Of a stretch of DNA of 64,000 bases, positions 15,254 to 44,566 are shown one piece after another. Positions within the stretch are counted from its first letter, which is position 1. Every line of letters begins with the position of its first letter. Made by a program: the position numbers and the translations under genes. Source of the DNA: Candidatus Saccharimonadales bacterium (GTDB taxonomy: Bacteria > Patescibacteriota > Saccharimonadia > Saccharimonadales > Saccharimonadaceae); contig JBDSSF010000001.1 of the NCBI GenBank assembly GCA_039928925.1, positions 1-64,000 of the forward strand, read 5' to 3'. The notes beneath the pieces were generated by a model. That model searched no databases. It had not been told where the DNA came from and saw nothing but the letters and a program-made list of their open reading frames with translations.

Positions 15254-15258
15254 GGTTG

Positions 15259-15864
15259 TCACTTTCCTTCGTTGATGGTGGGGTCCTTGGGGCTGTACTT
15301 GATGCGGAAATCACGAGCAACACGCCTGAGGCGGGAAGTCGCGGTCTCCTTCTTCGGGCTGTCCGTGTCGATCGATTCTGCACTGGGCGGATTCGGTCGA
15401 CGGGTCGGACGAACAGGTCGAGCGACGGGCTTTGCTGGAGTACGGGGTGGCACGCCCATGAATGAGGCGCTGACCACGTCCTTCACTCCAGTGAGGATGT
15501 CGCTCTTGTTGTCGTCCGGACCACTGAGAAGCTGGCTGCGCAGGCTCTGCGTGAGGGAATCGGATGCAGCGGAGTACCGCTGCAGGAGTTCCCCGTAGAG
15601 CTTGTTGGCATTTGTCAGGTCGTCGTTCTTGATGAACTCCCTGACGACCACGAAGATCGACCACCACTTCTTGCCGATGAGGTTGTACGCATCGGTGAGA
15701 TTGGCAATGGTCTCGGTGGTCTTCGGGTCGCTCGCTCCGAGCTGCGTGAGCGCTTCGATCTCCGTTTTGAGGGTGACACGGAGCGCTTTGCGCGTCTCGT
15801 TGAGCCCTTCCGGGCCGCCGAGGCGAGCGTGCAGTTCGGTTTTCGTGTACTTCATTTCGGTCAT
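15259..15864 (-). CDS. Helical protein with Pro/Arg-rich tail, GC-rich
   Basis: 201 aa from ATG at 15864 (MTEMKYTKTEL), preceded by AAAGGG at good distance; the TTG at 15879 is less likely. Residues 1-115 look alpha-helical (LGGPEGLNETRKALRV, LTDAYNLIGKKWWSIF, ANKLYGELLQRYS). Then comes a basic Pro-rich linker (PAKPVARPVRPTRRPN) and a charged C-terminus. No family is recognised. It is the first gene of a two-gene unit with the repeat protein at 13664, and the stop overlaps the alternative GTG of that gene. The GC-rich codon use is shared by both. Confidence 0.65.
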   Translation of the reverse strand: MTEMKYTKTELHARLGGPEGLNETRKALRVTLKTEIEALTQLGASDPKTTETIANLTDAYNLIGKKWWSIFVVVREFIKNDDLTNANKLYGELLQRYSAASDSLTQSLRSQLLSGPDDNKSDILTGVKDVVSASFMGVPPRTPAKPVARPVRPTRRPNPPSAESIDTDSPKKETATSRLRRVARDFRIKYSPKDPTINEGK

Positions 15865-16820: not shown

Positions 16821-16895
16821 GGTCTCATCGTCTAACGGTTAGGACACCAGGTTTTCATCCTGGCAATCGGAGTTCGATTCTCCGTGAGATCACCA
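16821..16895 (+). tRNA. tRNA-Glu(TTC), integration site
   Basis: 75 nt with encoded CCA. Acceptor GGTCTCA/TGAGATC (one G:U), anticodon stem CCAGG/CCTGG with loop TTTTCAT, anticodon TTC; T-loop TTCGATT. Its 3' half overlaps, antisense, the last codons of the serine recombinase. Confidence 0.95.
16855..16893. other. Probable attachment site (attL) inside tRNA-Glu
   Basis: The recombinase reading frame ends with MVISRRIELRLPG, which is exactly the antisense translation of tRNA-Glu bases 16893-16855. C-termini of this form are typical of integrases whose element sits at a tRNA 3' end. The crossover base is not defined and no second copy was found in the window. Confidence 0.55.
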
Positions 16896-18573
16896 TATGA
16901 GATTTTTCCATCGACAACAGTTTAAATACAGAATTCACCCCTGTGAAAAGGGGTGTTTTTTGTGTTCCATAATCTAAATCATCGTAGGTTGGTAGTGTAT
17001 CGAACAATACACCAAATAACTGGGCTTTCTTGTGTGGATCGGACTGTTTTAACAGTAGTAGATCTAAGTGTTCCAGGAGATACCGTACCCGTACCAGTAT
17101 TTGATCGATATTCATTGGTTTTTTGTTCTTCATCCCTAATTTCTCCTTCTCTAGCTTGATTATATTGTTATGAATCCGCTCTACTTCGTTCTCTAGGTAA
17201 GCTATAGCCGTTGCATTAGACAGCAGCATAATCTTACTCATTGTTGCCTCGGCCTCGTTCCTGAGCTCCTGAATATGCTTATCCAGAGCTTTTTGTCCAT
17301 CGCCAGTCAACATGTGGCGATGTTCAAACTCACTGCGTACAGTGGCAAGAAGTAAGTCTACCTGCTCCTGGTTCACTTTAATACGGCTAATAAATTGTGT
17401 GATTCGCTCGTCCATTTGGTCTTTTGGTATACGAAAGTAGTGACCCTTATTGCTACAGTGGTAGGCAGGATAATATTTCCCTGTTTTCCCCCGAGAGGCG
17501 CTGCCAAGTAAAGTACCTCTACACTCGGGGCACAGCACGAATTTCTTGTAAGGAAAATCAGGATTATTCATAACTTTCTCTACCAGGTGTTTTTTTGGGG
17601 CTTGGCGTTGAATCTCGTATTCACCATCGGCTGCGTTGTAGGCAATATACTTCTTGCCTCGATTAGCTCTGTTGAATAGGTCCGTTGTTATAAGACCGTC
17701 AAAGACACACTTCACTGGAGCGTAGTTTGTCCATTTCTCGACATTGATACCTGCATATATCGTATTTTGGATAATACGCTGCATACTTTTGACAGTGAGT
17801 ATGTTGCCACCTTTCTTTGCAATTATTCTAGTAAGGTCATCGGTATGGCAAATATAGTGTGTCCGTGTGTGATAGCCTGCGTCATTAAGCTTGTCGACTA
17901 TCTCCTGATCGTTCAATAGTCCTTCTGCACGAAGTTCAAACATCATTTTAATAAATACGGCTTCTTCAGCACGCGGTCGTAGTAACGTACGCTTTCCCTG
18001 GTTGGTGTCTACCTTCTCGCTATTGTATCCATAGGGTGGTTGGCGCATCCAGTAACCATTTTTCGTATAACGGATTTCCGCGCCTATCATACGGCTCATG
18101 ATGTCGCGAAGTTCATCTTTTGAGCGTTCAGCTTCAAGTATCTCTGACTTTTTGGTTGGGTTATAGATACTCCATTTATATTCAAAGCCAAGGTGATCAA
18201 GGGTGTTAATTTGTTGCGAGCCGATAACCCCATATATATCAACGAGTTGAACGCCACTCGACTCTAGCTGAGTCTTTAGTATATCGTAGCTGAGGGAACC
18301 ACCACGAGTGAACCGATCTATTGACTTGATTATAAACAAATCGATGCCATTTTTGGACTTCTTGCAGTAGTCGACTGCTTCTTGCATTGGCTGCTGCTCT
18401 TTGCTGGCGGACTCCATAAAGACAAAGATCTTTTTAATCGTGATGCCTTTTGTTTCGGCAAAACGCTCAATCTGCTCTTTTTGTGCCTCAGGTGAGTCTC
18501 CGTCGGTACCTTGTTTAGTGGTAGAGACACGAATCGCCGCAATGGCACCTTTACCGCTTAGATCAGAGTGCAT
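16855..18573 (-). CDS. Large serine recombinase (integrase)
   Basis: 572 aa. An N-terminal resolvase domain (1-150) has the catalytic Ser17 in AIRVSTTKQG and the motif SIDRFTRGG. It is followed by the Recombinase domain (about 190-320: PPYGYNSE, RPRAEEAVFIKMMFEL, SMQRIIQNTIYAG) and a zinc ribbon (CPECRGTLLGS, YHCSNKGH). A coiled-coil region (about 405-500) comes last. It would insert and excise an element by site-specific recombination. It runs antisense into tRNA-Glu, and the last 13 codons are tRNA sequence, so the C-terminus of the excised form would differ. A 41-codon gene lies 10 bp upstream on the same strand. Confidence 0.92.
   Translation of the reverse strand: MHSDLSGKGAIAAIRVSTTKQGTDGDSPEAQKEQIERFAETKGITIKKIFVFMESASKEQQPMQEAVDYCKKSKNGIDLFIIKSIDRFTRGGSLSYDILKTQLESSGVQLVDIYGVIGSQQINTLDHLGFEYKWSIYNPTKKSEILEAERSKDELRDIMSRMIGAEIRYTKNGYWMRQPPYGYNSEKVDTNQGKRTLLRPRAEEAVFIKMMFELRAEGLLNDQEIVDKLNDAGYHTRTHYICHTDDLTRIIAKKGGNILTVKSMQRIIQNTIYAGINVEKWTNYAPVKCVFDGLITTDLFNRANRGKKYIAYNAADGEYEIQRQAPKKHLVEKVMNNPDFPYKKFVLCPECRGTLLGSASRGKTGKYYPAYHCSNKGHYFRIPKDQMDERITQFISRIKVNQEQVDLLLATVRSEFEHRHMLTGDGQKALDKHIQELRNEAEATMSKIMLLSNATAIAYLENEVERIHNNIIKLEKEKLGMKNKKPMNIDQILVRVRYLLEHLDLLLLKQSDPHKKAQLFGVLFDTLPTYDDLDYGTQKTPLFTGVNSVFKLLSMEKSHMVISRRIELRLPG
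16936..16961 (+). terminator. Terminator of tRNA-Glu inside the recombinase 3' end
   Basis: CACCCCT/AGGGGTG stem with GTGAAA loop followed by six T. It lies 40 bp behind the tRNA and within the coding region of the antisense recombinase. Confidence 0.75.
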
Positions 18574-19725: not shown

Positions 19726-20973
19726 ATGGCAGCAAGGCTCCCAACACCTGGTCAAGATAGCGGCACTTGGGGCACTATTCTCAATGACTTTCTTGATGTT
19801 TCTCATAATCCTGATGGCACACTGATCTCGACAGCCGTTACTCAAGCAGGAGCAGGTACTTACACTAAACCAGGAAGTGGCATACCTGGAACTGACCTTG
19901 ATACTGCGACACAGACTACTCTTACGGCCGTAGCCTCCAAATACACGAAACCAGGTCCCGGTATCCCCGCGACTGATCTCACTACTGCCGTCCAAAACAG
20001 CCTCGCTGCTGCAAGCACCGCTATACAGACAGTTAACACCAAGACGCCTACGAGCGGAAACGTTACCCTCAATGTTGCCGACATCGGTGACGTTCAAGGT
20101 GGTACCGGTGCGACGAATAACCAAGTACTCGTCTATAACAGCACGACGACCAAGTGGGCGCCCGGAACTGTTTCAAGTACTACTGTGACAGACGCAACAG
20201 CCGGAGCTAAAGGTATCGTACAACTCGCGGGAGATCTTGCTGGAACAGCTGCAGCCCCTACCGTACCTGGATTAACGAGTAAAGCTCCTCTGGCTAGTCC
20301 AACCTTTACCGGCACAGTGACTATACCTACTCCAACAAACGGTACTGACGCCGCAACAAAAACATACGTAGATACCCAAGTCAGTAGCGGTACAGCAGAC
20401 GCTACAACGAACACTAAAGGTAAAGTACAACTCGCGGGAGACCTGGCGGGTACGGCGGCACTTCCAGTAGTTGCTAAAGTAAATGGAGTCACTGTAACGG
20501 GTACACCAACCACAGGGCAAGTCCTGACGGCAAGTAGCACCTCTGCTGCAGCTTGGTCTAGCCCTGCCGCTGGTGCAGGTAACGCAACCTCTAGTACGCT
20601 TGGTATTATCCAACTCGCTGGCGACCTCGGCGGGAGCGCTACAGCTCCATCGGTCGTACGAGTAAACGGTGCTGCACTGAATGTTGCAGCAGTCACTAAG
20701 ACCTCTGCCTACACTATCACAGCTAACGACACTGTTATCTTGGTAGACGCTACATCTGCTACATTTACATTAACGCTGCCAACAGCAGCTGGATACGTCG
20801 GTCGCTACACAATTGATGCCATCTCGGGAGGAAACAATCTTGTAACAGTAGCCGCTTCTGGCGGACAAACAATTGATGGTGCGGCAACTACTACCATTGG
20901 AAACCAAGCGTCTGGTGCTCCATGGAGTTCTGTCGATCTTATTTCAGATGGATCTAACTGGAGAACGGTGTAG
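19726..20973 (+). CDS. Phage tail-fibre-like protein A
   Basis: 415 aa. The N-terminal module (ARLPTPGQDSGTWGTILNDF, then LDVSHNPDG) is shared with the gene at 23226. Ser/Thr/Ala-rich repeats follow, with units like GIVQLAGDLAGTAAAPTV (three copies) and fibre motif SPTFTGTVTIPTPTNGTDAA then TKTYVD. The C-terminal beta domain (about 325-415, TITANDTVILVDATSATFTL) resembles phage fibre tips. No signal peptide is seen. It is the first gene of a plus-strand array. The function is probably receptor binding; how it leaves the cell is unknown. Confidence 0.75.
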   Translation: MAARLPTPGQDSGTWGTILNDFLDVSHNPDGTLISTAVTQAGAGTYTKPGSGIPGTDLDTATQTTLTAVASKYTKPGPGIPATDLTTAVQNSLAAASTAIQTVNTKTPTSGNVTLNVADIGDVQGGTGATNNQVLVYNSTTTKWAPGTVSSTTVTDATAGAKGIVQLAGDLAGTAAAPTVPGLTSKAPLASPTFTGTVTIPTPTNGTDAATKTYVDTQVSSGTADATTNTKGKVQLAGDLAGTAALPVVAKVNGVTVTGTPTTGQVLTASSTSAAAWSSPAAGAGNATSSTLGIIQLAGDLGGSATAPSVVRVNGAALNVAAVTKTSAYTITANDTVILVDATSATFTLTLPTAAGYVGRYTIDAISGGNNLVTVAASGGQTIDGAATTTIGNQASGAPWSSVDLISDGSNWRTV

Positions 20974-20975
20974 CT

Positions 20976-21035
20976 ATGGCTCATAAAGCAGCAAATCATT
21001 ATCGTAAACCTACTGCCCAAGGAATTATTTCATGA
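20976..21035 (+). CDS. 19-aa coupled micro-ORF
   Basis: ATG GCT CAT ... TCA TGA; the stop overlaps the start of the next gene as ATGA (21032-21035). It begins 3 bases after the previous stop. The encoded peptide (MAHKAANHYRKPTAQ, then GIIS) looks real in codon use but is tiny. It may only couple translation to the next gene. Confidence 0.4.
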   Translation: MAHKAANHYRKPTAQGIIS

Positions 21036-21077
21036 GTAAAGCAAACTTACCGTTATCGACACTTAATGCCACGTATG
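21028..21077 (+). repeat. 50-bp exact repeat, adhesin N-terminal module (copy 1)
   Basis: Identical to 28052-28101. It covers the last bases before the ATG and the codons for MSKANLPLSTLNATY. The flanks are unrelated on both sides. Confidence 0.9.
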
Positions 21078-22873
21078 CGCAGATTCCCGACGGTGCTATG
21101 CGAAATACCCCGCGTGCGCTCATTCCGGTCAACACTGGAATTGTCACTACGTTCCAACCGGGACACGGGTTCCACGATATTGGCACCACTGCCGCATCTG
21201 TCAGCGATGACACCACTGATTACCTCAGCGGTTCGCAGTCGCTTAAGGTGGTCACAAAAACCGACGGCACTACTGCGAAGGTCGACAACTCCGCCCTTAC
21301 CATCAATGCGACCGCTATGTCATTTAGGGTGTTGGTAAAGGTTGATGATGCTACTAACCTTGCGACCTGGCTATTCTATGTAGGGAACGCGGCGCTATCT
21401 TCGTCATATCAGTGGTTTATAGCCCAGACTGATCCGTCGCTTACTAAGGCGCAGCACTACGTTAAGGCTGGCGAGTGGGTATGGATCACGTTTGGATTCC
21501 AAGACGCAGGTATTGTCGGTACGCCGGACAGGTCGGCGTTGACACACATCAGGCTCGCTGCTTCTGCGGCGAATGGTAGCTCTATTACCGTTCACTTCGG
21601 TGGGATTGCGTTGGTGGATGAATCGACCGCGTTTCCGTCCGGGGTTGTTTCGTTTTGCTATGACGACTCGCTAGAGTCCACCTACACCCAGGCTAGGGTT
21701 GCGCTAGATAAGTACGGCTGGGTGGGTACTGAGTATGTGATCTGTGACCTTGTTGGTTCCGGTGGGAAATATATCAGTCTCGCTGATTTACAGACGCTGG
21801 AAGATGCTGGCTGGACTGTGGGGGCGCACTCGTACACCCTTGCCGACCATGCTACGGGCTTTACTAATCTAAATACGCAGCAACTGACTGACAACCTGCG
21901 CAATATGCGTCGTCAACTTACCGCATGGGGACTCCAGGGTGGTGACCACCTTGCCTACCCCGGTGGTGGGTACAACGCTGCCGTTTTGGCAGTAACCGAC
22001 CAATTCCATACCTCGGCGCGCACAGTGAACCACCAAACCTTGGAGACGCTCCGACCTTCGGACGCGCTGAGGATTCGATCCGCATCGTTGGTTAACACAA
22101 CAACAGTAGCGTATATCAAGAACCTAATAGACAACGCGCTGGCCAGTAAGGGCTGGCTCGTTCTCACATTCCACGATTTGGTTACGACAGCAACGTCCAG
22201 TGATCAATATGCCATTGCGGACCATCAGACGATTGTTGATTACTGCGCAACGGTAGGGATTCGGGTGAGTTCGGTCGCGGATGTCATGTCCCGGATGAAT
22301 GCACCGGTCCCGGTTAGCGGCTACACCACCGCACAGCTCGTCAACCAGACACTTGGCAACACCTCGACCCGAATCGGGTGCTACCCCTACAGGATCAGTT
22401 CACCGGTCGCTACCGCTGTAACCGCAGGTGATCTGAACCTTGTCTGTTTCACTCCGGTTGTGGATATCACAATCACCGCGATGTCAGCCATGTCAGGCTC
22501 TACTGCATTCGCCGGATCGACATTGACTAGGATAGGACTGTTCACTACTGATCCATCTACAGGTGCAATCACTCTGGTGGCTGCGACTGACAGTGACACG
22601 ACACTTTTCACTGCACCGAGCACTGTTTACCGCAAGGTACTCGGTACCACTGGCGGTCTCCCGACCGCTTACACTCTCAAGGCAGGACAGCGATACGCAG
22701 TCGGCGTCCTCGGCGTTGGTCTGAGTGCCGGATCACTGTTCATGGGTGCAATTAGTAGCGTCCTCACTGCTCGGCTCCCAAGAATGTGCGGTAAAATCGC
22801 CTCACAAACCGACCTGCCCCCGACCGCGACTATCGTGGCTACCCCGACGCCAATCTGGGCAGAAGTCGGCTAA
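21032..22873 (+). CDS. Polysaccharide-deacetylase-containing tail/adhesin-like protein
   Basis: 613 aa. The N-terminal 15 residues are the shared MSKANLPLSTLNATY module. Residues 25-205 are a beta-rich domain (carbohydrate-binding or LamG-like). Residues about 205-405 match NodB-type polysaccharide deacetylases: SFCYDDSLEST (metal Asp-Asp), WTVGAHSYTLADH (His), HLAYPGGGY and VLTFHDLV. The C-terminal domain (430-613) is of a kind I associate with actinophage minor tail proteins. Directly after the module the DNA becomes strongly GC-rich, so the body looks recently acquired. Likely target: N- or O-acetylated cell-wall or capsule glycans of a host cell. Confidence 0.75.
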   Translation: MSKANLPLSTLNATYAQIPDGAMRNTPRALIPVNTGIVTTFQPGHGFHDIGTTAASVSDDTTDYLSGSQSLKVVTKTDGTTAKVDNSALTINATAMSFRVLVKVDDATNLATWLFYVGNAALSSSYQWFIAQTDPSLTKAQHYVKAGEWVWITFGFQDAGIVGTPDRSALTHIRLAASAANGSSITVHFGGIALVDESTAFPSGVVSFCYDDSLESTYTQARVALDKYGWVGTEYVICDLVGSGGKYISLADLQTLEDAGWTVGAHSYTLADHATGFTNLNTQQLTDNLRNMRRQLTAWGLQGGDHLAYPGGGYNAAVLAVTDQFHTSARTVNHQTLETLRPSDALRIRSASLVNTTTVAYIKNLIDNALASKGWLVLTFHDLVTTATSSDQYAIADHQTIVDYCATVGIRVSSVADVMSRMNAPVPVSGYTTAQLVNQTLGNTSTRIGCYPYRISSPVATAVTAGDLNLVCFTPVVDITITAMSAMSGSTAFAGSTLTRIGLFTTDPSTGAITLVAATDSDTTLFTAPSTVYRKVLGTTGGLPTAYTLKAGQRYAVGVLGVGLSAGSLFMGAISSVLTARLPRMCGKIASQTDLPPTATIVATPTPIWAEVG

Positions 22874-23225
22874 ACAACTGGTAAGTATTAGCGACTGAGG
22901 GCTTACTATAATCTCGTAGCCATTCGCTCCACGAAGCTCACGTTCTGCGCCACTCTCAAGCACACCGCAGCTAGTCCATTAGTTGCTTAAGTCTATTTTG
23001 GTGCACCTAGCGTTCTTGTATTGAGTAATCAGCAAATATTGTAATAATCTAGTAATCGGCGTTAAATAACACATACTGAATCGTAGTTATTCATTACTAC
23101 GAACGCTCAGTTAATTAAGAGGACATCATACATTAGTACATATAGCATAAACAGTATGAGGGATACCCCTTGTGCTATAGTATTAGGTACAATAATATGA
23201 GTATAATGAGTACAAAACATATACT
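22874..23225 (+). other. Intergenic region, no gene seen
   Basis: 352 bp without a convincing ORF, RNA gene or strong hairpin. The last 60 bases are AT-rich and probably carry the promoter of the next gene (candidate -10 boxes TATAGT and TACAAT). Confidence 0.4.
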
Positions 23226-24398
23226 ATGAGTACGGCTCGTTTACCGGTACCCGGCGGAGACGATGGTGATTGGGGAAATATACTCAATGATTTTCTTACC
23301 GTCTCGCATAATGCGGATGGTGTACTTCTTCCAAGCGCCGTTACAACTGCTGCAGTCGGTAACCTTGCTCCGCTAACAGGCGGTAAAGTTCCCTCAAGTA
23401 ATCTCGGTTCTGGAACTGCCGGGAGTAGCAACTTTCTTCGCGGTGATGGCATCTGGGCAGTGCCAAGTGGTGCGGCGGCATCTGCAGCAACAACTACGAG
23501 TGTTGGTCTCATTCAGTTATCTGGGGATTTGGGAGGCAGTGGCACTATCGCTACCAATCCTGTTATCTCTGATGGTGCCATAACGAACAGTAAGCTTGCC
23601 AACGGTAGTATTAGCACCAACAAACTGGCGGCTGGTTCTGTCACTACAAACGAGATAGCTGACGCCACGATAACAGACACTGATATAGCCGCCTCTGCGG
23701 GCATAGCTCGAACCAAATTAGATACCAGTACTCAAACCAGTCTTGGAAAAGCCGATACCGCGCTCCAAACTGCACCCGTAACAAGTGTCGCGGGCAAAAC
23801 AGGTGACGTACTATTAGTAAGTTCTGACGTGGGGCTGGAAAACGTTGATAATACCAGTGACGTAACTAAAAATAGTGCTACCGCCGCCCTTACCAATAAA
23901 TCCATTTCAGGTGCTAGCAACACATTATCTGCCATTCCCGAGTCTGCGGTGACCAATTTGCCGGCTGACTTAGCCGCCAAAGCGACTGATACTACTGTAG
24001 TACATCTGGCTGGAACAGAAACGATTACGGGTGATAAAACGTTTAGCGGCGCCATAACGGTAGCGACTCCTATAAATCCTACTGACGCTTCAACGAAATC
24101 GTACGTCGACACCACCGCTATCAGTCATGCAGTTACTGTGCGCACGGGAAGCTATACCGCCTCCGCTACAGACGAAATTATACTTGCCGACACAACTACT
24201 ACTGGATTCACTATAACGTTACCATCGGGCGTAGTGAATGGTAAGACATACGACATTAAAAAAATAGATAACTCCGCTCACGCCGTTACTGTTGTACCGA
24301 GTAGTGGTCAGATTGATGGTAGTAGCTCTGCAGTAGTCAAAGTCCAATATGCAGCAGTAACCTGTATAGCGAGTGGGGGCAATTGGTATGTTATTTAA
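23226..24398 (+). CDS. Phage tail-fibre-like protein B
   Basis: 390 aa. It shares the N-terminal module with the 19726 gene (ARLPVPGGDDGDWGNILNDF). Then come TSVGLIQLSGDLGGSGT, short Ile/Thr/Asp repeats (ITNSKLANGSISTNKLAAGS) that recall triple-beta-helix fibre shafts, and VGLENVDNTSDVTKNSAT, a motif common in phage tail fibres. TKSYVDT and a beta tip (ATDEIILADTTTTGFTITL) end it. The tip is homologous to that of protein A. It probably forms trimers. Confidence 0.75.
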   Translation: MSTARLPVPGGDDGDWGNILNDFLTVSHNADGVLLPSAVTTAAVGNLAPLTGGKVPSSNLGSGTAGSSNFLRGDGIWAVPSGAAASAATTTSVGLIQLSGDLGGSGTIATNPVISDGAITNSKLANGSISTNKLAAGSVTTNEIADATITDTDIAASAGIARTKLDTSTQTSLGKADTALQTAPVTSVAGKTGDVLLVSSDVGLENVDNTSDVTKNSATAALTNKSISGASNTLSAIPESAVTNLPADLAAKATDTTVVHLAGTETITGDKTFSGAITVATPINPTDASTKSYVDTTAISHAVTVRTGSYTASATDEIILADTTTTGFTITLPSGVVNGKTYDIKKIDNSAHAVTVVPSSGQIDGSSSAVVKVQYAAVTCIASGGNWYVI

Positions 24399-24416
24399 CT
24401 ATACTAAGGTACGAGC

Positions 24417-25277
24417 ATGAGCTATAACCCTCAGAATCCGAATGGTTCGGCAATAAGCACTAATTCAGCGCCAGTTGTTATCGCAAGCGACCAATCGGCC
24501 GTCCCAATTACCGTAGGTTCGTTGCCACTGCCAACAGCTGCCGCCACTAGTGCCAAGCAGCCAGCTTTAGGTACGGCCGGTACACCTTCAGCTGACATTT
24601 TGAGTGTCCAAGGTGCAACTAGTATGACACCACTAAAAGTGGACGGCTCGGCCGTTACGCAACCCATATCTGGCAGTGTCACAACAACTCCATCCGGTAC
24701 GCAAACGGTAACCGGCACAGTAGCCTCGACCCAGTCAGGCATATGGACAGTGCAGCCTGGCAACACTGCGAATACTACGGCCTGGCTTACAGCAGATACG
24801 GGCACCAAAGCCACTAATACTGCCGTCCCAGCCAGCGCTAGCTATAGCGGCTTATTAGCCCAAACGGCAAACCCTGCGGCTGCAACTGCGGGAAACTTGG
24901 TAGGCGCGCTAGCCGACAAACTGGGCAAACAGGTCGTGGTTGGTTCTATCCGCGATCTTAAGGCAAATCAGATAACAACTATCACGGCATCAACTGCCGA
25001 GACCACAATCGTTACCGCTGTTGCTAGTTCATTTTTAGATCTATATGGTCTAATCGTTACGAACACTTCACCAACGGCAATAAATGTAGTCATAAAAGAC
25101 GCTACCGCTGGTACAACTCGTCTGACTATTGCCGTACCAGGCAATGATACTCGTGGTTTGATGCTCCCTGAAAGCGGCGCAATTAAACAATCGGCCGTTA
25201 CAAACAACTGGACCGCTACCGTATCTAACGCGGTAACTTCAGTAATCATAACTGCCCTGACGGTAGCCAATACCTAA
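24417..25277 (+). CDS. Phage structural-like protein
   Basis: 286 aa. The start MSYNPQNPNGSAISTNSAPV, then VIASDQSAVPITVG, is a recurrent N-terminus of phage baseplate or tail proteins. The middle is low-complexity Thr/Ala/Ser-rich, and a beta-sandwich-like end (about 180-286) finishes with TVSNAVTSVIITALTV. The TAA overlaps the ATG of the next gene by one base, so the two are coupled. AAGG lies 8 nt before the start. Confidence 0.65.
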   Translation: MSYNPQNPNGSAISTNSAPVVIASDQSAVPITVGSLPLPTAAATSAKQPALGTAGTPSADILSVQGATSMTPLKVDGSAVTQPISGSVTTTPSGTQTVTGTVASTQSGIWTVQPGNTANTTAWLTADTGTKATNTAVPASASYSGLLAQTANPAAATAGNLVGALADKLGKQVVVGSIRDLKANQITTITASTAETTIVTAVASSFLDLYGLIVTNTSPTAINVVIKDATAGTTRLTIAVPGNDTRGLMLPESGAIKQSAVTNNWTATVSNAVTSVIITALTVANT

Positions 25278-27493
25278 TGGCTTCGAGGTTTTGGGTTGGT
25301 GGTGTCGGGTCATGGACGGCAATTGCCACAGCGAACTGGTCGGCTACGAGTGGAGGTGCCGCTGGAGCAAGCGCTCCGACTACATCTGATGATGCGATTT
25401 TTGACACTAACTCAGGCATAATATCTGGGAGTATCATCACAATAAACGGTGGGGTTTGTTTGTCGTGGCAAGTGGCAGGCCCTGCGGTTAAATATTCTGT
25501 TTTTAGTCTTGGATCTAATTTTTCTCCAATTGGTTCAGTGATATTAAATGGTAATAGTAGCCTCAATCGTATCCAAATTGTTAGTAATATCCCAGGTACT
25601 TCTCGCACGATAACTATAGGCACACTAGCAGCAATGAGTAACATAGATTTTATGGACACTATTGGAGCTGGCGCAGCTACACCGTTTACTGGAACATCAA
25701 TTGGCGATTGCCAAGGAAACTCTGGTATTACGTTTGATGTGTCGAAAACACTGTATTGGTACGGCAACGCAGGTGTCGCCTCTGATGTAACCAAGTGGTT
25801 TCTAGCAAGTGGTGGGGCGGGAGGTGCTGGAAGAATACCTCTAGCCCAAGATGATCTCATCTTCGATGCAAATTCTTTTTCGCTCGCTTCTCAGACCATC
25901 ACCTTTGATATGCCAGCTATGGGTCGGAGTATAGATATGTCAGCTGTCAATAAGACGGTATCATGGGCTGACACGAATGCAATCGGGCAATCCTTTTACG
26001 GGAGTTTATTCATGCCACCTACAGCCCTGTCGGTCTTGAGCGGAGTATCCTATATTTTTGGTACTGTAGGACTTATCGCGAGGGGTCGAGGTAGTTATAC
26101 GCTAGGGGGTGTAGGTGGCGTTCACTATGGAGCTGGACTTATCATACTTGCTCCCGGTGGAACTTATACGCTGAGTGGTAATATCGGAACTGGTAATGCG
26201 AATTTCAGTATTACGGCTGGGACCTTGGATACGAGTGTTAATAGCTATAGTATTCGCTGTCTTGGTCTGGTATCAAGCGGTGCTTTAACTAGGTCGGTTA
26301 TCTTGAATAATAGTACTGTCAACGTGCAAGGATTGACTATCTTTTCGCTGACAGCCGTTTCTTTTACCGTAACAGGATTAACAGTCAGCGCCGGTAACAC
26401 TACTATCAATCTTGTTGACTCCCAGCCAGCTAGTAGGAGTTTTGTTGGCGCTGGGCAAAGTTTCGGAACTCTGAATTATACAAATGCTGGCTCATCAGGA
26501 AGTCTCGTAGTCACGGGGGCTAATACTTTCACTACTATCAATGTCGGCACGGGTCGCACGCTAACACTGCCGAGTAGTACAATCACAACGGTCACGAACT
26601 TTAACGCGGCGGGTACGAATAACGGCTACGAGTACTTTCCTGGAGCAACTGGTAGTCTTGTATCAACTCCGAGCGCTATAGCACTGCAAATAACGGGCGA
26701 TATCGACCTGCGCTGTTACATGGCCGCTGATAACTACACGAATAATCCAGTAGTACTAATCGCTAAAGAATCGGATACCGCCCATCGGTCCTACCGATTT
26801 GAACTAAACTTACAAAAGCTGCAACTCATGCTATCGGCTGATGGTATCGCTCAGAATCTCACTACGAGTTCAACCAACATACCGTTTGCTGCCAGCGCTG
26901 CCGGCTGGGTAAGAGCAACCTGGGTAGCTTCGACGAATATCGTGCAGTTCTTTACTTCTGCTGACCCAGTTTTTACGGCACCTAGCTCTGTTAGTTGGAC
27001 CCAGTTAGGAACGAACCAAACTAATGCTGTAGCTTCCATATTTAATTCAACCTCACCAGTCGAGATAGGCACCAGAGATGGGGGTATTATCAGCTTTTTC
27101 CCTGGCAAAATGTATAGGGCACAGATTTTGAGCGGCGTTGGTGGAACGGTTGCATTTGACGCAAACTTTACGACCAAACCCTTCGGGGCTAATAGCTTCA
27201 CTGAATCGTCTGTTAATGCTGCTACGGTGACAATAACGGGTGCTGTGGCGCAAGCGGGTGATGGCCGAACCGCTATAAATGCCTCTACGTCTGGTACGGC
27301 AGCTACGCTCTCGAAGGCTAGTGGTGTCGTCTCGGCCGATTACCTCACAGTTCAAGACTCTACCGCTAATGGGGGCGCCACATTCTATGCGGGGTCAAAT
27401 TCCAAGAATGTTTCTAACAACACTGGCTGGATATTTACTTCTCAACCCGCGACTGCTATCGGTGCAACATCACTGATGATGGGTGTTGGTTAG
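25277..27493 (+). CDS. Large tail/adhesin-like protein with LamG-like domain
   Basis: 738 aa. Two copies of a RFWVGG/NWSATSGG...DDAIFDTNSG type motif (at about 4-40 and 155-195) start the two halves of a beta-solenoid-like region. At about 460-650 a LamG/concanavalin-like domain is visible (ITGDIDLRCYMAADNY, YRFELNLQKLQLML, WVRATW, PVEIGTRDGG, FFPGKMYRAQI). It has no signal peptide. It is coupled to the preceding gene by TAATG. Such domains bind glycans in phage tails and adhesins. Confidence 0.65.
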   Translation: MASRFWVGGVGSWTAIATANWSATSGGAAGASAPTTSDDAIFDTNSGIISGSIITINGGVCLSWQVAGPAVKYSVFSLGSNFSPIGSVILNGNSSLNRIQIVSNIPGTSRTITIGTLAAMSNIDFMDTIGAGAATPFTGTSIGDCQGNSGITFDVSKTLYWYGNAGVASDVTKWFLASGGAGGAGRIPLAQDDLIFDANSFSLASQTITFDMPAMGRSIDMSAVNKTVSWADTNAIGQSFYGSLFMPPTALSVLSGVSYIFGTVGLIARGRGSYTLGGVGGVHYGAGLIILAPGGTYTLSGNIGTGNANFSITAGTLDTSVNSYSIRCLGLVSSGALTRSVILNNSTVNVQGLTIFSLTAVSFTVTGLTVSAGNTTINLVDSQPASRSFVGAGQSFGTLNYTNAGSSGSLVVTGANTFTTINVGTGRTLTLPSSTITTVTNFNAAGTNNGYEYFPGATGSLVSTPSAIALQITGDIDLRCYMAADNYTNNPVVLIAKESDTAHRSYRFELNLQKLQLMLSADGIAQNLTTSSTNIPFAASAAGWVRATWVASTNIVQFFTSADPVFTAPSSVSWTQLGTNQTNAVASIFNSTSPVEIGTRDGGIISFFPGKMYRAQILSGVGGTVAFDANFTTKPFGANSFTESSVNAATVTITGAVAQAGDGRTAINASTSGTAATLSKASGVVSADYLTVQDSTANGGATFYAGSNSKNVSNNTGWIFTSQPATAIGATSLMMGVG

Positions 27494-27960
27494 TACGCTT
27501 TCCTGTCCAATATAGCAATTATTGTACGACCGGTATGAAATGCCATTGCTTGCAGCGTAGGAGGTGATGCTTGAGATCATAAATTTTCTGGATATGCAGT
27601 AAATACTATGCAAGTACGTCTCTCAACTTCCAAAACTATTTTGATGGAATAAGACGGGTTTATGGTAGGCTTGTATGATGAATGGATCAGTTGCCAGCTC
27701 CTGCGGCTAAAGCCGCAATGCAGACTCATATGATTCAGTTGTTACTCTGACCGCTTCTTCATAGCTTATGCCACTAATAAAGTCAGGGCAGGGTCACCGC
27801 TACCTGCAACATAGCAACGCCAACTGTGTCGGGCACTTCAGGGTATGTTTCTCTAGGCGTTAATATACTGTATGGCGTTTAAAGGTAACATTATCTACTG
27901 AATCACAGCCTCCAGTAAAGCGCGAGTCAATGAAAGGAGCTTATGGTATACTATACCTAA
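27494..27960 (+). other. Intergenic region with fragments
   Basis: About 470 bp without an intact gene. It contains a perfect hairpin TGCGGC-TAAA-GCCGCA (27703-27718), an apparent pseudogene fragment (27700-27870) and TATACT 8 nt before the 27961 ORF. Confidence 0.4.
27700..27870 (+). pseudogene. Decayed C-terminal end of a tail-like protein
   Basis: Three short stretches in different frames read like one protein end: ADSYDSVVTLTASS, then AYATNKVRAGSPLPAT, then TPTVSGTSGYVSLGVNILYGV cut by frameshifts (last 20-residue part ends at TAA near 27880). The style matches the Ser/Thr/Val-rich fibre proteins nearby. Confidence 0.35.
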
Positions 27961-28059
27961 ATGAGTAAGCCTAATTTATCACTGTCTACACTCAATGCCA
28001 CACATGCGCAAAAACTAGCAGGGACTCGAAGCAATAAAAATATAGGCTATCTTTCATGA
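27961..28059 (+). CDS. 32-aa truncated copy of the adhesin N-terminal module
   Basis: ATG at 27961 gives MSKPNLSLSTLNATHAQ, a divergent copy of MSKANLPLSTLNATYAQ, then 15 further codons and TGA overlapping the ATG of the next gene (ATGA, 28056-28059). It may be a remnant of a cassette whose body was lost, now working as a coupling ORF. Confidence 0.55.
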   Translation: MSKPNLSLSTLNATHAQKLAGTRSNKNIGYLS

Positions 28060-28101
28060 GTAAAGCAAACTTACCGTTATCGACACTTAATGCCACGTAT
28101 G
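28052..28101 (+). repeat. 50-bp exact repeat, adhesin N-terminal module (copy 2)
   Basis: Identical to 21028-21077. Confidence 0.9.
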
Positions 28102-29618
28102 TAACGCATGCGGCAACATCGTCTCGTTTCGCTTTATCTTCACTTGCATGGCAAGGATTATACGCAAGAACACAGCCAGTCGTGAACGTACCAGGTGGTC
28201 ACACCGGGACATATCGTCCCGTCGCGGTGGATCCCAATTTCTCAGGTGTAAATGGTACGGGTCGTCTCTGGGGTGTATCAAATGCTCATGGCTATATAGT
28301 ATTTACTGATGATGACGGAGTTAATGGTACTGCTACTACAGCGAACCCGACCACTGATGCAGTACCATCCGGTGTAGTAGGTATGTACTTTGCAACTGAT
28401 AGCAGCGCGAATAAGTGGGTCTTTCTAGTCACCGGTACTAGTGCTTCGGTACCATCTTCAGGGGAGATATGGCGCTCACCAGCACCGAGTGCGACAGGTA
28501 CGGGTTTAGTCTGGACCTGCGTGTGGAGAGCAAACGGTCTGGCACTGGGTCCAGGTAGTAGCGCGGCATTTGCACCAGTCAACTCAACCATGCGCAATGG
28601 TTCTTTTGCAGTTGATCCATCTGGACATGCTTTTGCCCTTACCTACGGTTCGCCGAACGCAACTCAACAATTTCCTACACTATCCGATGGCATTATGCGG
28701 GCTGGCTCGAACCGCTTAACTTCACTTGGAACGAAGTTTTCGGCATCTATGATTGGACAAGTTGTCACGGTATCAGGTGCTGGTGCGGCCGGTAGTACCT
28801 ACACGGGCACAATCACGTCAATCGAATACACCTGTCAGAATATAGCCGTATTGAATACCCCAGCTGCGACTGATTCATCCGCCGCAACAATTACTTTTAC
28901 AAATACAACACTGGGGGCCGGCGTCTGCGTAGGTGGTCCGGCGATTTACCACTCGGCGAATATCTTTACTGCGACAGCTGGAAGTGTGACGTGGACATTA
29001 TCTAAGCAGTGGCCACAAGCAAAACACGGACACGCCGTTAAAATTATTGGTGGTTACCCGTGGGTATCACTCGGTGATATGGGTGGTACTGCTCAACCAT
29101 ACATCCAATTCCCTGATATTGGTATATCCCGTGCAACGTCGCTCACGTCTCCAACTGTGTGGAGCAACCCTGGCGTCGCAGGAAGTGGCGGCAGCGGGAC
29201 AACCCGAGACGTCATATCTTTCTTCCCAGTAACTTTCAATGGAAAAACGGTAATTGTTGGGGAGTCTGACGGGAGTATAAACGATGGACCACTTGTATTT
29301 CCGTCCGCTGCACCTGGAGTATCTGCTGCAGTGACGGCTCTCCATCAGATACCGTTTGTCTACGGACAAACGATGCGATCGATGGGTCTCACTCCAGAGA
29401 ATAATCTGATCTGGGCGGGCGTCTCGGAAAATGGAGCCCATGGTACTGCCGACTCCCTATGGATGAGCGCACCGCCATTTGATACGCCGCACCTCCTAGA
29501 GGACGTAAACTCAGCAACTCTCATTTCAAGCCAAATCCTGAGTGATGCGGTGATTTCAAATGGGTACTGGTGGGCGGGCACATATCGGATAGCTTACGAC
29601 AAACTTATCGGTCAGTAA
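28056..29618 (+). CDS. Beta-propeller-like adhesin with shared N-terminal module
   Basis: 520 aa. It starts with MSKANLPLSTLNATY, identical to the 21032 gene, and then a different body. Repeated blades with WxCVWRANG, GRLWGVSNAHGYIVFTDDDG, HAFALTYGS, GGYPWVSLGDMGG and NLIWAGVSENGAHG suggest a BNR/sialidase-like beta-propeller. Two cysteines occur in the middle. It is the last gene of the array. The TGA of the 32-codon ORF overlaps its ATG. Probable role: glycan or protein binding at the cell surface or in a fibre. Confidence 0.65.
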   Translation: MSKANLPLSTLNATYVTHAATSSRFALSSLAWQGLYARTQPVVNVPGGHTGTYRPVAVDPNFSGVNGTGRLWGVSNAHGYIVFTDDDGVNGTATTANPTTDAVPSGVVGMYFATDSSANKWVFLVTGTSASVPSSGEIWRSPAPSATGTGLVWTCVWRANGLALGPGSSAAFAPVNSTMRNGSFAVDPSGHAFALTYGSPNATQQFPTLSDGIMRAGSNRLTSLGTKFSASMIGQVVTVSGAGAAGSTYTGTITSIEYTCQNIAVLNTPAATDSSAATITFTNTTLGAGVCVGGPAIYHSANIFTATAGSVTWTLSKQWPQAKHGHAVKIIGGYPWVSLGDMGGTAQPYIQFPDIGISRATSLTSPTVWSNPGVAGSGGSGTTRDVISFFPVTFNGKTVIVGESDGSINDGPLVFPSAAPGVSAAVTALHQIPFVYGQTMRSMGLTPENNLIWAGVSENGAHGTADSLWMSAPPFDTPHLLEDVNSATLISSQILSDAVISNGYWWAGTYRIAYDKLIGQ

Positions 29619-29776: not shown

Positions 29777-30118
29777 ATGGTATTGCATATTAAAGTCTAC
29801 GAAACCAAGAGTGGTCAGACGCCCGTAGAAACCTTCATTAAAGGCATGCAGCCACCAGCTCAAGCAAAACTAGCTCGTCTCCTCACTATGCTTGAAGAGT
29901 TTGGGGCAGAACTTAGTATGCCGCACTCTAAACCACTTGGTGATAGCCTCTACGAACTACGAATACGTGGCAAGCAAGAGGTACGTGTTTTTTATATATT
30001 CGCTGTAGCCCGACACATTTATCTTCTCCATGCCTTTCAGAAAAAAACCCAGACAACACCGAAGAAAGAGCTAACCATCGCCAGACAGCGTCAAATAGAA
30101 ATCGAGAGTATACCGTAA
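29777..30118 (+). CDS. higB: HigB/RelE-type toxin (Gp49-like)
   Basis: 113 aa of the phage Gp49-like/HigB family in the RelE superfamily: TPVETFIKGMQPPAQAKLAR, LGDSLYELRIRGKQEVRVFY, YLLHAFQKKTQTTPKKEL. Such toxins cut mRNA at the ribosome. TATAGT preceded by TGC ends 6 nt before ATG, so it is probably leaderless. The antitoxin follows 71 bp downstream, the reversed order typical for higBA. Confidence 0.85.
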   Translation: MVLHIKVYETKSGQTPVETFIKGMQPPAQAKLARLLTMLEEFGAELSMPHSKPLGDSLYELRIRGKQEVRVFYIFAVARHIYLLHAFQKKTQTTPKKELTIARQRQIEIESIP

Positions 30119-30132
30119 AAGGGATAATCCTA

Positions 30133-30164
30133 TTGACTGTATTATAACTTATAAGTTATAATAC
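30133..30164 (+). promoter_or_regulatory. Antitoxin promoter overlapped by 26-bp palindrome
   Basis: TTGACT (30133-30138), 18-bp spacer, TATAAT (30157-30162). Bases 30139-30164 form a perfect 26-bp palindrome covering spacer and -10, the expected operator for HigA autorepression. AAAGGA precedes the higA start. Confidence 0.8.
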
Positions 30165-30189
30165 AGCACAAGATAACGAAAGGACACTC

Positions 30190-30462
30190 ATGAAAGACTG
30201 GAAGACAATTAAGCAAGAATTACTCAAGAACCCTGAGGTTCGTACGGCCTACGATGAACTTGAACCGGAATATAAACTTGCACACAGTCTGATCAAGGCA
30301 CGCATCGCTCAAAAGATGACCCAAGCAGAGCTCGCAGAACGAGCAGGCGTCAGTCAGGTGATGATAGCCCGACTTGAGAGTGGCACCAACAACTCAACCG
30401 TTGGGACAGTGAGCCGAGTTGCTGCTGTACTGGGTAAAGAACTGAAACTGGTCGCTGCTTAG
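30190..30462 (+). CDS. higA: HigA-type antitoxin (XRE HTH)
   Basis: 90 aa. A helical N-terminus is followed by an XRE helix-turn-helix (about 35-88: KMTQAELAERAGVSQVMIAR, LESGTNNSTVGTVSRVAAVL). It should neutralise the 29777 toxin and repress at the palindrome just upstream. Its own promoter lets it be made in excess over the toxin. A strong terminator follows. Confidence 0.87.
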   Translation: MKDWKTIKQELLKNPEVRTAYDELEPEYKLAHSLIKARIAQKMTQAELAERAGVSQVMIARLESGTNNSTVGTVSRVAAVLGKELKLVAA

Positions 30463-31572: not shown

Positions 31573-33960
31573 TTAGTGAGATACTATCGTCTCGCCGCTC
31601 ATTGGCTCTTGAGCATCCACGCCTGTTATACGGCAGTAAAAGTTATAGGCCGAAAGGTTTGAGATTTCACCCTTTTCGAGGTACGGCTCGAAGAGGGGTA
31701 GCAGTAATTCTTCATCCTTCGGGCTGCCTGTTCGGAATACTATAATGGTACCGACATTCGCCAAGATGATATTCACTAGTTTTTGGTCGTTTTGCTGCTG
31801 AGTGGATTGCTCAGCCATTGTTAAGTACACCTTATACTTACGTGATTCACTGAGCATCTGCGTGAATGATAGCGTTGCGAAGTTTTGAAACTCATCGACG
31901 TAAAGATAGAATGGCTTACGGTCATCTTGTTTTTTCTCAGAACGTTTGAGAGCGGCCAATTGCAGTTTGGCGAGGATTGTTATGCCGAACAGCATAGACG
32001 TATCCTCGCCTAAGCGTCCTTTACTAAAATTACAGATCAGAATCTTGCTATCAAGTATCTCACTGAAATCGATGGTAGACTTCTCTTGCTCCAACATAGC
32101 CCGAGCACTGGCAGAGAACAAGAAGCGACCAATCTTAGCAGTGATACCGGCAGCCATTTTAACCTTCTGCATACTGCCAGCTTTGCCAAGCTCATTTTTC
32201 CAGAATGCTTTCAGATCTTCGTCCGTAAGGTTATTGATAGCATTCTTGGCAAATTTACCATCGTTTAGTAAACGAAAGATAGTAAACAAGGTTGGTTTTT
32301 CAAGAGTGAGTGCTGTCTGCGTTGCATTGCGTAGAATGTATTCAATACGGTGGCCACCACTATCATCCTCGGAAAATATCTTGCGCATGACCGAAATAAC
32401 TGACTCTGTAACACGGTCCTTTTCGCGGAGTAAATCGTTACCCGTGAGGCCGTCGGGTAGTTCAAGGAGATTGATACCAATCGGGTGATCAAGATCGTCC
32501 GGGTTGAGATAAATTAAATCTTTTTCTCGCTCTTTTGGAATGTATTCAAGTAGTTCCTCTGCAAAGTCACCATGCGGATCAATCACCGCGACACCTTTGC
32601 CGTTACGGATATCTTGTATAATCTGATACTTTAATAACGTTGTCTTACCGCTACCGGTACCGCCTACTACGTACATATGTCTTTCTCGTTCTGGTATCAT
32701 TAGCCCGATCAATGTCTCGTTGCCATGGTATTTGTTCACGCCAATAATGACATCGAGATCAAGGTGTCCGTGTAAGCTGACTGGCGCAGGTAACACTCGG
32801 CTGTGCGTGCGCATCATGCCTTCGGTGCGTATGATGCCATACGGAAAGTGGAATAACGTTGCTATCTCTGACATGCTGAGTACGGAACTATTGTATGGGA
32901 GGATAGAGCCGAGCCGACGGCTAAATAATAGACCAAGGTAGCGTTGGCGTGAAAGAGGAGATGGCCAGCGTGAGAGCTCAAGACGCTGGAACCCTTTTGT
33001 ATTGAGTGTCTCTAGTGAAGCCGTGAATTCATTTGTCAGGGCTGCTGCACGGTCTGGAGAAGAAACACTGAGACGTATGTCCGTCTGCAGTAACGGTTGT
33101 TCAAGTTTAGCGGCGACATTGTCATAGATAGTTGTTTCAAGACGCGTAAGCTCTCGCTCGGCACGTTCCTCGAATAGACTAGGTAGCCAGAGTACTAAGG
33201 CAAGAACTAACCCAATTTGCCACTGATGCGTCAGTCCTCCGACTAGGATAGCCGGTAGCCATATCCAGGCATAGGCAAGCACGCGGTAGCGCAGTTTGCC
33301 GTCAATCATAACGCTGCCTTTAGCGATTAGTACACTGTGGATCTTTTGTGCTCTGCGTGACGTATAGCGGCGAGTAACCAGTTGCAATGTAACCTCCTCT
33401 TCGTCACGTAACCGTGTCATTGAACCTGCGATAAAAGCAATGGGATCAGATTGCTCGAGACCTACATGTGGTTTTAATGGATAGGCAAAATGGCGGGACT
33501 GTCTGATGCTAGAAACGAGTACGTTCTCTCTTGGTTCTAAAGATAGCTCAACCTGGTTAAATCGGAGCTCTGTCATGTATGATGCAAAGTGCTTCTGAAT
33601 ACTAGGTAAATCCTGTCTCTCGGCAATAACGCGGTAGGTAATACCTTTCTTTTTGCTACCAATAATTTCGAACGAGACTGGACTGCCACTTGTGATTTGT
33701 TGTTGCAAAATAGCAAAGAGACTTTGGGTATTGTGGGGATGTATCGTAGATTGTTTCGGTGGGGTTATCTCAAGAGCGCCAAGCTCTCGTGGTCGTGAGA
33801 AAGCTACTATACGAGTAATGGTATCTGACACCGGTCGAAATACACGCCGCCATGTATAGTAGACAAGGCCTACGATGATGGCAGTATTGATAATCATGCT
33901 AAGGGGTCCGTCGCCAAAGATACGGGTAAATAGTGATGATGCAAATTGTATATTCATCAA
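31573..33960 (-). CDS. VirD4/TraD-like conjugation ATPase, copy 1
   Basis: 795 aa. N-terminal membrane segment (about 17-37) and another hydrophobic pair near 235-265; soluble AAA-type ATPase from about 400. Walker A GGTGSGKTTLLKYQ, then VIDPHGDFAEELL, GHRIEYILRNATQTAL, Walker B region YLYVDEFQNFAT and AEQSTQQQND. This is the coupling-protein-like ATPase of CPR and Gram-positive conjugative elements, which delivers DNA or proteins to a type IV channel. A paralogue is at 59567. It converges with the tyrosine recombinase. No relaxase is visible next to it. Confidence 0.82.
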   Translation of the reverse strand: MMNIQFASSLFTRIFGDGPLSMIINTAIIVGLVYYTWRRVFRPVSDTITRIVAFSRPRELGALEITPPKQSTIHPHNTQSLFAILQQQITSGSPVSFEIIGSKKKGITYRVIAERQDLPSIQKHFASYMTELRFNQVELSLEPRENVLVSSIRQSRHFAYPLKPHVGLEQSDPIAFIAGSMTRLRDEEEVTLQLVTRRYTSRRAQKIHSVLIAKGSVMIDGKLRYRVLAYAWIWLPAILVGGLTHQWQIGLVLALVLWLPSLFEERAERELTRLETTIYDNVAAKLEQPLLQTDIRLSVSSPDRAAALTNEFTASLETLNTKGFQRLELSRWPSPLSRQRYLGLLFSRRLGSILPYNSSVLSMSEIATLFHFPYGIIRTEGMMRTHSRVLPAPVSLHGHLDLDVIIGVNKYHGNETLIGLMIPERERHMYVVGGTGSGKTTLLKYQIIQDIRNGKGVAVIDPHGDFAEELLEYIPKEREKDLIYLNPDDLDHPIGINLLELPDGLTGNDLLREKDRVTESVISVMRKIFSEDDSGGHRIEYILRNATQTALTLEKPTLFTIFRLLNDGKFAKNAINNLTDEDLKAFWKNELGKAGSMQKVKMAAGITAKIGRFLFSASARAMLEQEKSTIDFSEILDSKILICNFSKGRLGEDTSMLFGITILAKLQLAALKRSEKKQDDRKPFYLYVDEFQNFATLSFTQMLSESRKYKVYLTMAEQSTQQQNDQKLVNIILANVGTIIVFRTGSPKDEELLLPLFEPYLEKGEISNLSAYNFYCRITGVDAQEPMSGETIVSH

Positions 33961-39364: not shown

Positions 39365-39646
39365 ATGGATCCTACAATACCTATAAATAAAAGAGTAGAC
39401 ATCGTTCCTATTTTTCGTGCCTTTGCTTCGGAGACGATGGTGTGTGTTCCATGGAAAATGAAGTTTGGAATGCAGGAGATTATTTTTACTAAGTTTGGCA
39501 TGAGACACCCAACCGCTAAAGGTAAACGTATGATACATGTATTTGAAATGAGCGACGGAGTCAACGACTACCGCTTAGAGTTTGATGCAGAAAGATTAAT
39601 TTGGACACTTGTCAGTATGGTGGAGGGAACAAATGTACGGGATTAA
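39365..39646 (+). CDS. 93-aa partner protein of the Y-family polymerase
   Basis: The product has a beta-rich look (IFRAFASETMVCVPWKMKFG, MQEIIFTKFGMRHPTAKGKR, MIHVFEMSDGVNDYRLEFDA). The last 14 bases overlap the polymerase gene. By position it recalls the YolD-like partners beside UvrX/YqjW-type polymerases, but I see no clear YolD match. SD: GAAGGA. Confidence 0.6.
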   Translation: MDPTIPINKRVDIVPIFRAFASETMVCVPWKMKFGMQEIIFTKFGMRHPTAKGKRMIHVFEMSDGVNDYRLEFDAERLIWTLVSMVEGTNVRD

Positions 39647-44411: not shown

Positions 44412-44566
44412 AGGTTAGGTTGTAAGTGAATGTTACTATTTTTTAACAACCTTTATATATTATAACGTTTACACTCCTTAGTCAAATTTTATATCTCTGT
44501 AGCCCTATGTTATTATGAAGGTATTAAGATAATAAAAAACCAGTACACCTAGGGACATTTGAACTT

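Follow-up and report, generated by a model that had tools for sequence, protein, structure and literature searches.

A putative Tat-linked plug-and-socket system for displaying phage-type fibres in Saccharibacteria

The twin-arginine translocation (Tat) pathway transports folded proteins, and partners that lack a signal can hitch-hike through the membrane on one that bears it, as in HybOC and PaoABC of Escherichia coli (PMC4273604). A related arrangement is proposed here, from genes, for an array of phage-type fibre genes at positions 19726-29618 of a 64,000-nucleotide window (G000, contig C1, positions 1-64000) in the five-contig, 984,634-base genome of a Candidatus Saccharimonadales bacterium. 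Two proteins of this array begin with a short conserved segment, the RLP module. Judging from the company that its genes keep, this module is likely to be the plug of a Tat-linked surface-display system for phage-type fibres. As in the E. coli cases, a folded, signal-less partner would be carried by a Tat-signal protein encoded by a neighbouring gene. However, the E. coli cargo is a cofactor-bearing redox enzyme, whereas the putative carriers described here are anchors of 60-100 amino acids that look uncleaved, and each may serve many fibre cargoes that share a portable tag.

Other described systems resemble parts of this arrangement. Streptomyces phages Alone3 and BRock have a homologous RLP module, with YGxxxYG peptides in tail proteins of Alone3, and the TM7 phage DolZOral124_53_65 has a homologous deacetylase body. 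Unlike in these phages, the fibres of the Saccharimonadales genome come without capsid, terminase, portal or tube genes, and a Tat carrier would replace the tail. Tailocins and extracellular contractile injection systems also use phage-derived fibres to recognise bacterial targets, but no sheath, tube, baseplate or ATPase was found at the loci studied here, and the fibres appear to be attached to the membrane rather than to a particle. Surface adhesins of epibiotic Patescibacteria are reported to be essential (PMC10633639) and presumably contact host cells as well; RLP modules, Tat and phage-type fibres are not described in the passages of that report that were found. Reports on Tat describe tatBC in a Saccharibacterium, together with four TAT-motif genes of which two have unknown functions (PMC6031116), and TatA/TatC in several Patescibacteria classes (PMC9166423). 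Neither describes a fibre cargo or a link to phage-type proteins. No connection between Tat and tail fibres in Saccharibacteria or Patescibacteria is described in the open literature searched, a scope that leaves out most subscription papers and preprints, suggesting that the export and surface holding of ready-folded phage-type fibres via Tat is so far undescribed.

The array contains six large open reading frames (ORFs), all on the plus strand. ORF calling bears out the six plus-strand genes that an initial annotation, made from the letters alone, had described.

19726..20973, plus strand: RLP-module fibre 1, 415 amino acids, with an N-terminal RLP module (residues 1-40), DUF5907 repeats and the C-terminal domain found also in 23226
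19726..19851, plus strand: putative RLP docking module of fibre 1, from the RLP profile, alignment and AlphaFold2
21032..22873, plus strand: fibre-type polysaccharide deacetylase (PF01522), 613 amino acids, starting with MSKANLPLSTLNATY
23226..24398, plus strand: RLP-module fibre 2, 390 amino acids, with an RLP module, DUF5907, a BppL_N-like segment and the C-terminal domain of fibre 1
24417..25277, plus strand: accessory ORF, 286 amino acids, whose N-terminus recurs close to RLP genes of other genomes
25277..27493, plus strand: large ORF, 738 amino acids, LamG-like by eye only, no Pfam match
27961..28059, plus strand: degraded MSKANLP start of 32 codons that extends over the ATG of 28056
28056..29618, plus strand: large ORF, 520 amino acids, with an MSKANLP start of which 50 nucleotides are identical to that of 21032

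Tail-fibre and deacetylase bodies, as originally described, are borne out by database matches. Pfam finds DUF5907 fibre-type repeats in 19726 and 23226 (E 1e-20 and 3e-10) and the PF01522 deacetylase in 21032 (E 1e-12), and tail-protein PHROGs match array proteins, with phrog_37034 corresponding to the C-terminal domain common to 19726 and 23226. Gordonia and Arthrobacter phages have relatives of 21032 among their minor tail proteins, and the deacetylase-domain protein of the TM7 phage mentioned above is a further relative. The ORFs at 24417, 25277 and 28056 have no significant Pfam match, and the labels LamG for 25277 and beta-propeller for 28056 are dropped. The N-terminus of 24417 recurs near RLP genes at three other loci (L144, directly after an RLP operon, L033 and L053).

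The RLP module has the consensus MxRLPxPGxDxGxWGxILNDFL, and 19726 and 23226 begin MxARLPxPGxDxGxWGxILNDFL. This shared start had been noticed by eye (as ARLPxPGxDxGxWG-ILNDF) and is far beyond chance, with profile E-values of 1e-24 to 5e-26 in the genome itself. A search of this genome and other Saccharibacteria, suggested with the initial annotation, finds seven RLP genes here (C1:19726, 23226, 122862 and 124918; C3:3687, 193399 and 204398) and the module in 58 of 195 genomes of the class, with up to 20 copies each. It is rare elsewhere, being present in four genomes among 287 drawn from the phylum. In the 20-kb neighbourhoods that were read, RLP genes sit amid dnaK/dnaJ-, lepA-, primase-, ruvB/C- and DNA polymerase I-like genes (names by eye). 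Those of the Saccharimonadales genome that were read in context adjoin glycosyltransferase, pilin-like, methyltransferase and surface-protein genes, and no phage genes.

The bodies behind the module are highly varied. The 106 distinct cellular RLP proteins fall into at least 80 body clusters, and a deacetylase body like that of 21032, which has a different start in the window, stands behind an RLP module in another genome (G094, locus L039). The fibre bodies are thus exchangeable, as had been proposed. They include deacetylase, beta-helix, SGNH and lectin-like types, and their probable role is to recognise host envelopes and modify them. In all 106 proteins the first 60 residues are free of hydrophobic stretches, in agreement with the earlier remark that signal peptides are absent. 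Eight residues (R4, L5, P6, D11, W15, G16, L19 and L23) are invariant in 47 cellular and viral modules. AlphaFold2 run on these 47 gives a 60-residue model with a mean predicted local distance difference test (pLDDT) score of 72. The conserved part, residues 11-30, has block means of 87-91 and one predicted helix (residues 13-26), and the remainder is loose. No solved structure related to the module was found in the PDB.

A second start, MSKANLPLSTLNATY, opens the proteins of 21032 and 28056, where 50 nucleotides are 100% identical. The initial annotation placed it at 27961 as well, but there it is a 70% copy whose frame spans just 32 codons and overlaps the start codon of 28056; 27961 is therefore a remnant and not a gene. 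Among the 195 genomes of the class, this tag has no convincing match in the 194 others. It is a local duplication; we reject it as a general tag, and a docking role is not supported. The suggestion that the N-terminal modules are docking or export tags consequently divides: for RLP it is strongly supported by genomic patterns (at least 80 bodies, tracking of TatC and carriers, operons with carriers), and for MSKANLPLSTLNATY it is unsupported.

TatC genes and small proteins with Tat-like signals were first noticed while the RLP neighbourhoods were being read. When TatC (PF00902) is searched in the same 195 genomes, it exceeds the cut-off in 58, of which 57 also have RLP (Fisher 4e-47, phi 0.975). 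Another patchy gene, COX1, serves as a control and gives a phi of 0.40 with RLP. Genera g2, g8, g10, g11 and g15 hold both states, and in each of them RLP and TatC change together among the genomes listed. RLP-negative genomes remain negative with a profile of 47 sequences. Beyond the class, TatC is present in each of the four RLP genomes compared with 15 of about 277 overall (hypergeometric 6e-6), and all four have carriers. TatC also occurs there in genomes without RLP, so RLP seems to need Tat and not the reverse. The window's own genome encodes a Tat translocase, with TatC at E 7e-51 and TatA (PF02416) over the cut-off.

The small proteins form a family, here called carriers, of 60-100 amino acids with no match in Pfam. 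At the N-terminus they have a putative Tat signal, about [STD]RK-x-FLK, after which come a hydrophobic stretch and a tail that closes with YGxSxYG; within the signal pattern [STD]-R-K/R-x-F-L-K the first arginine and the phenylalanine are invariant in the seed alignment. Carriers are found in 58 genomes of the class, 56 of them RLP-positive, and they follow RLP and TatC inside the five mixed genera except in genome G075. A third type of protein, the 'socket', is one with a YG motif near its (mature) N-terminus, a motif definition that was made after seeing the data. The genome has the following components.

C1:136130-136351, minus strand: tatA (PF02416)
C1:135066-136127, minus strand: tatC (PF00902)
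C1:134785-135006, minus strand: carrier with the tail SYGGSAYGG, consecutive with tatC and tatA
C1:136419-136661, divergent from tatA-tatC-carrier: socket-type protein of 80 amino acids with N-terminal YGVGVYG and a C-terminal membrane segment
C3:204526-204738: second carrier, tail HGFGSSKFGV, directly preceding the RLP gene C3:203813-204523

Of 57 genomes, 44 have a carrier no more than 3 kb from tatC, and at least 15 genomes have an RLP gene no more than 5 kb from it, when about two would be expected. In 24 carrier-RLP pairs, including the C3 pair, the carrier is directly upstream, mostly with an overlap of 1-4 nucleotides or a gap of less than 20. Sockets turn up no further than 2.5 kb from tatC at 17 of 32 loci, but at only 2 of 65 background points. 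In a Levyibacteriota genome (L202), tatA, tatC, carrier and RLP fibre form one operon, whose carrier-fibre pair has no match in plasmid records, and in a Parcubacteria genome a carrier, tatC and a socket are close to an RLP gene. Two further sets of the Patescibacteria type are found under Actinomycetota names: socket, tatA, tatC, carrier and RLP fibre in Acidithrix ferrooxidans Py-F3 (NZ_JXYS01000026, L206 5001-9124), and socket, tatA, tatC and RLP fibre in an Actinomycetes metagenome-assembled genome (L204). Transfer to Actinomycetota or mis-assigned contigs are both possible.

The same pairing of module and peptide appears in phages. Several IMG/VR contigs have fibre genes that come after tape-measure-like genes and open with an RLP module, so that fibres of viral contigs carry a homologous module at the N-terminus, where a tail-fibre docking module would be expected. 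Beside these fibres, most of the viral loci have YGxxxYG no more than 30 residues from the end of a protein. It is found at the N-terminus of the next gene (L120, L121, L125, L126) or of a gene three places on (L122/L123), at the C-terminus of the preceding gene (L127, L128, and as YSSGLFG in L129), at the C-terminus in L118 and internally in L124. The strict motif occurs 14 times in the 36,492 residues of RLP viral loci, which represent about seven lineages and thus a modest number of independent cases, compared with once, not terminally, in the 49,830 residues of eight control tail loci. Matches to a loose motif lie within 30 residues of a protein end in 13 of 16 cases at RLP viral loci and in none of five at control loci. 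The controls are annotated phages; a deacetylase-based search for control phage loci in IMG/VR found no match. In Alone3, gp41 has the RLP module and the baseplate-region gp102 has GYGVDIYGTVLYG near its N-terminus.

Cellular modules and carriers come in two matching subtypes. F-type modules (RLPxVNxDDGxWGDxLxQYLxKEHY) stand behind carriers with the tail GFGxxK[FY]G, and ordinary modules behind carriers with GYGSSxYGG-like tails. Carrier tail and module agree in type in 23 of 24 pairs (Fisher 1e-5), and both subtypes occur together in several genomes. This covariation is consistent, as far as sequences can tell, with direct contact. The F-type is accompanied by Sec-type proteins whose mature N-terminus is of the kind SPFGQGVFGADVPFG. 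A Sec-type family of about 185 amino acids is found near F-type RLP genes; its mature N-terminus reads [SQN]P[FY]GxGx[FY]GxxVP[FY]G, and the two members tested have no Pfam match. Members of this family are:

L015 14251-14811
L081 6949-7509
L136 545-1108
L138 5184-5741

These patterns suggest a route by which the fibres could reach the cell surface. Fibres would have no export signal themselves; synthesis and folding would both take place in the cytoplasm, and the RLP module would bind the YGxSxYG peptide in the C-terminal tail of the small carrier, a putative Tat signal-anchor protein. TatA/TatC would move carrier and fibre through the membrane as a hitch-hiker complex, and the hydrophobic segment of the carrier would remain in the membrane. 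The fibre could then stay on its carrier or pass to a socket, which has this motif at its mature N-terminus. Such a system could display whatever body follows an RLP module, so that a genome could acquire fibre genes one by one or with mobile elements. The latter would be the case in the window, whose fibres would use the chromosomal tatA-tatC-carrier-socket set at C1:134785-136661. Hitch-hiking would predict co-occurrence and overlapping carrier and fibre genes, and both are found. Pili play no part in the picture obtained here.

Phage tails are the probable source of both plug and peptide. More broadly, and with somewhat less assurance, we favour the view that a plug-and-socket code (RLP plus YGxSxYG, in at least two matching subtypes) is common to phages and Patescibacteria and has been rewired to Tat to display folded, exchangeable fibres for host recognition, with Saccharibacterial Tat serving mainly this purpose. 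It is largely open how Saccharibacteria, like other Patescibacteria, select host cells and hold on to them, and the system, if real, would supply modular, horizontally exchangeable receptor binding with an export route. It would also account for the retention of Tat in no more than about a third of the class, and its short peptide/module pair might be usable for the display of folded proteins. The proposal yields direct predictions of which protein binds which.

Several points count against this proposal. Three genomes are exceptions: in G146, RLP stands alone; G075 combines RLP and TatC but lacks a carrier and a clear TatA; and G059, which has TatC and a carrier, shows no RLP even when the 47-sequence profile is used. 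The P-values overstate independence because the genomes are related. A Tat substrate would be expected to start with S/T-R-R-x-F-L-K, but in carriers the second arginine is often lysine or another residue, and about half of the tatC loci have no clear socket. The largest fibres reach 1248 amino acids, and a trimer would exceed a 135 kDa complex that is among the largest Tat cargoes cited (PMC4273604). Four array ORFs have no RLP module; they may ride on RLP fibres or be displayed differently. Covariation of carrier and module may only reflect inheritance of whole operons. Finally, the support is genomic.

Of the alternatives, the one that survives best keeps the Tat linkage of carriers and RLP but lets YGxxxYG bind something else, such as another tail or envelope protein. 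The motif is short and glycine-rich, one control phage (L175) has it in the interior of a tail protein, and no structural match for RLP was found in the PDB. Nevertheless, the motif recurs beside RLP in unrelated proteins of several phage lineages and at either terminus, and its Y and F subtypes are matched in cells, so we consider another partner unlikely. The control-phage protein, Microbacterium phage Lifes gp42 (L175 8273-10036), is a tail protein that contains FGYGEGPYGSGPYGG at about residue 60. No RLP module is detected in this phage, and the protein may dock a different fibre.

A second alternative makes the Tat carrier only a surface anchor, with fibres leaving the cell otherwise (by lysis or another exporter) and then being caught by the YG tails of carriers and sockets. 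Carriers do look uncleaved, sockets bear the same motif outside, and some RLP genomes have many fibres for one carrier (20 RLP genes and one carrier in G156). However, a plain single-span anchor needs no Tat-type signal, as the socket demonstrates with its Sec-type features, and the overlap of carrier and fibre genes favours assembly before export. This makes an anchor-only role quite unlikely.

The fibres might also be phage or satellite remnants, either decaying prophage pieces or a reservoir for passing phages, with an indirect link to Tat. Their bodies resemble phage minor tail proteins, RLP fibres exist in viral contigs and recombinases flank the array. As the initial annotation stated, no capsid, portal, terminase, tape-measure, sheath or lysis gene is convincingly found; among 26 of the window's ORFs scanned with PHROGs and/or Pfam, no convincing phage structural family appears besides those of fibres, the nearest miss being a partial terminase-like match to a VirB4/TraD-type ATPase. 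A tailed prophage (Caudoviricetes) is rejected on this basis, since the scanned window ORFs and the other RLP loci read gene by gene have no capsid, portal, terminase, tape-measure or lysis genes. We likewise reject a tailocin or extracellular contractile injection system, as sheath, tube, baseplate and AAA ATPase are missing from the scanned window ORFs, the whole genome not having been scanned per family. No prophage is present in the window or at the other inspected RLP loci, and the RLP module is not the property of one phage lineage, being found in several unrelated phages and at many cellular loci. The cellular RLP genes are open, mostly long, and set amid housekeeping genes with no adjoining phage genes. 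Together with the near-perfect match to TatC and the operon with tatA, tatC and carrier, this makes a remnant origin very unlikely. That RLP, TatC and carrier are merely separate traits of larger-genome, free-living Saccharibacteria is close to negligible as an explanation: COX1, another trait of these lineages, does correlate with RLP, but far less closely than TatC, and the concordant states inside five genera, the physical linkage, the gene overlaps and the recurrence in other classes all argue for a functional link.

In the window, the array is flanked by genes associated with mobility.

16821..16895, plus strand: tRNA-Glu, overlapped by the recombinase gene, candidate attachment site
16855..18573, minus strand: large serine recombinase (Pfam, PHROGs), with a relative in L075
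18781..19602, plus strand: helix-turn-helix (HTH) replication-initiator-like protein (Pfam), with relatives at L075 and at the RLP locus L025
30666..31535, plus strand: tyrosine recombinase, beyond the opposite end of the array (Pfam, PHROGs)

The initial annotation placed the fibres on an integrative element. In genome G114 (L075), a 46% identical relative of the serine recombinase directly precedes an RLP fibre, and a relative of the HTH protein is there too. This one further case supports, from gene content, travel of RLP fibres on recombinase elements, although most RLP genes lie among housekeeping genes. The tRNA-Glu gene is a possible attachment site; no attachment-site repeats are found with 12-nucleotide seeds, a search that is uninformative for serine recombinases.

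Other genes of the window deserve mention. A Gp49-like (HigB-type) and HTH (HigA-type) pair adjoining the array at 29777-30462 is a probable toxin-antitoxin module. Two VirB4/TraD-type ATPases (TrwB/TraG-D/HerA matches) are encoded at 31573-33960, also adjoining the array, and at 59567-62113. A DinB-family polymerase and its small upstream partner ORF (39365-40883) recur as a pair at RLP loci L072, L077 and L078. On the minus strand, an ORF at 13664-15262 with 62% guanine plus cytosine contains a repeat with a 9-nucleotide unit (18 registers, 14102-14336); it has no match in Pfam or PHROGs and lies beside a DUF11 surface-type protein (12054-13361). Finally, two divergent cellulose-synthase-like glycosyltransferases at 42792-46282 suggest an exopolysaccharide locus.

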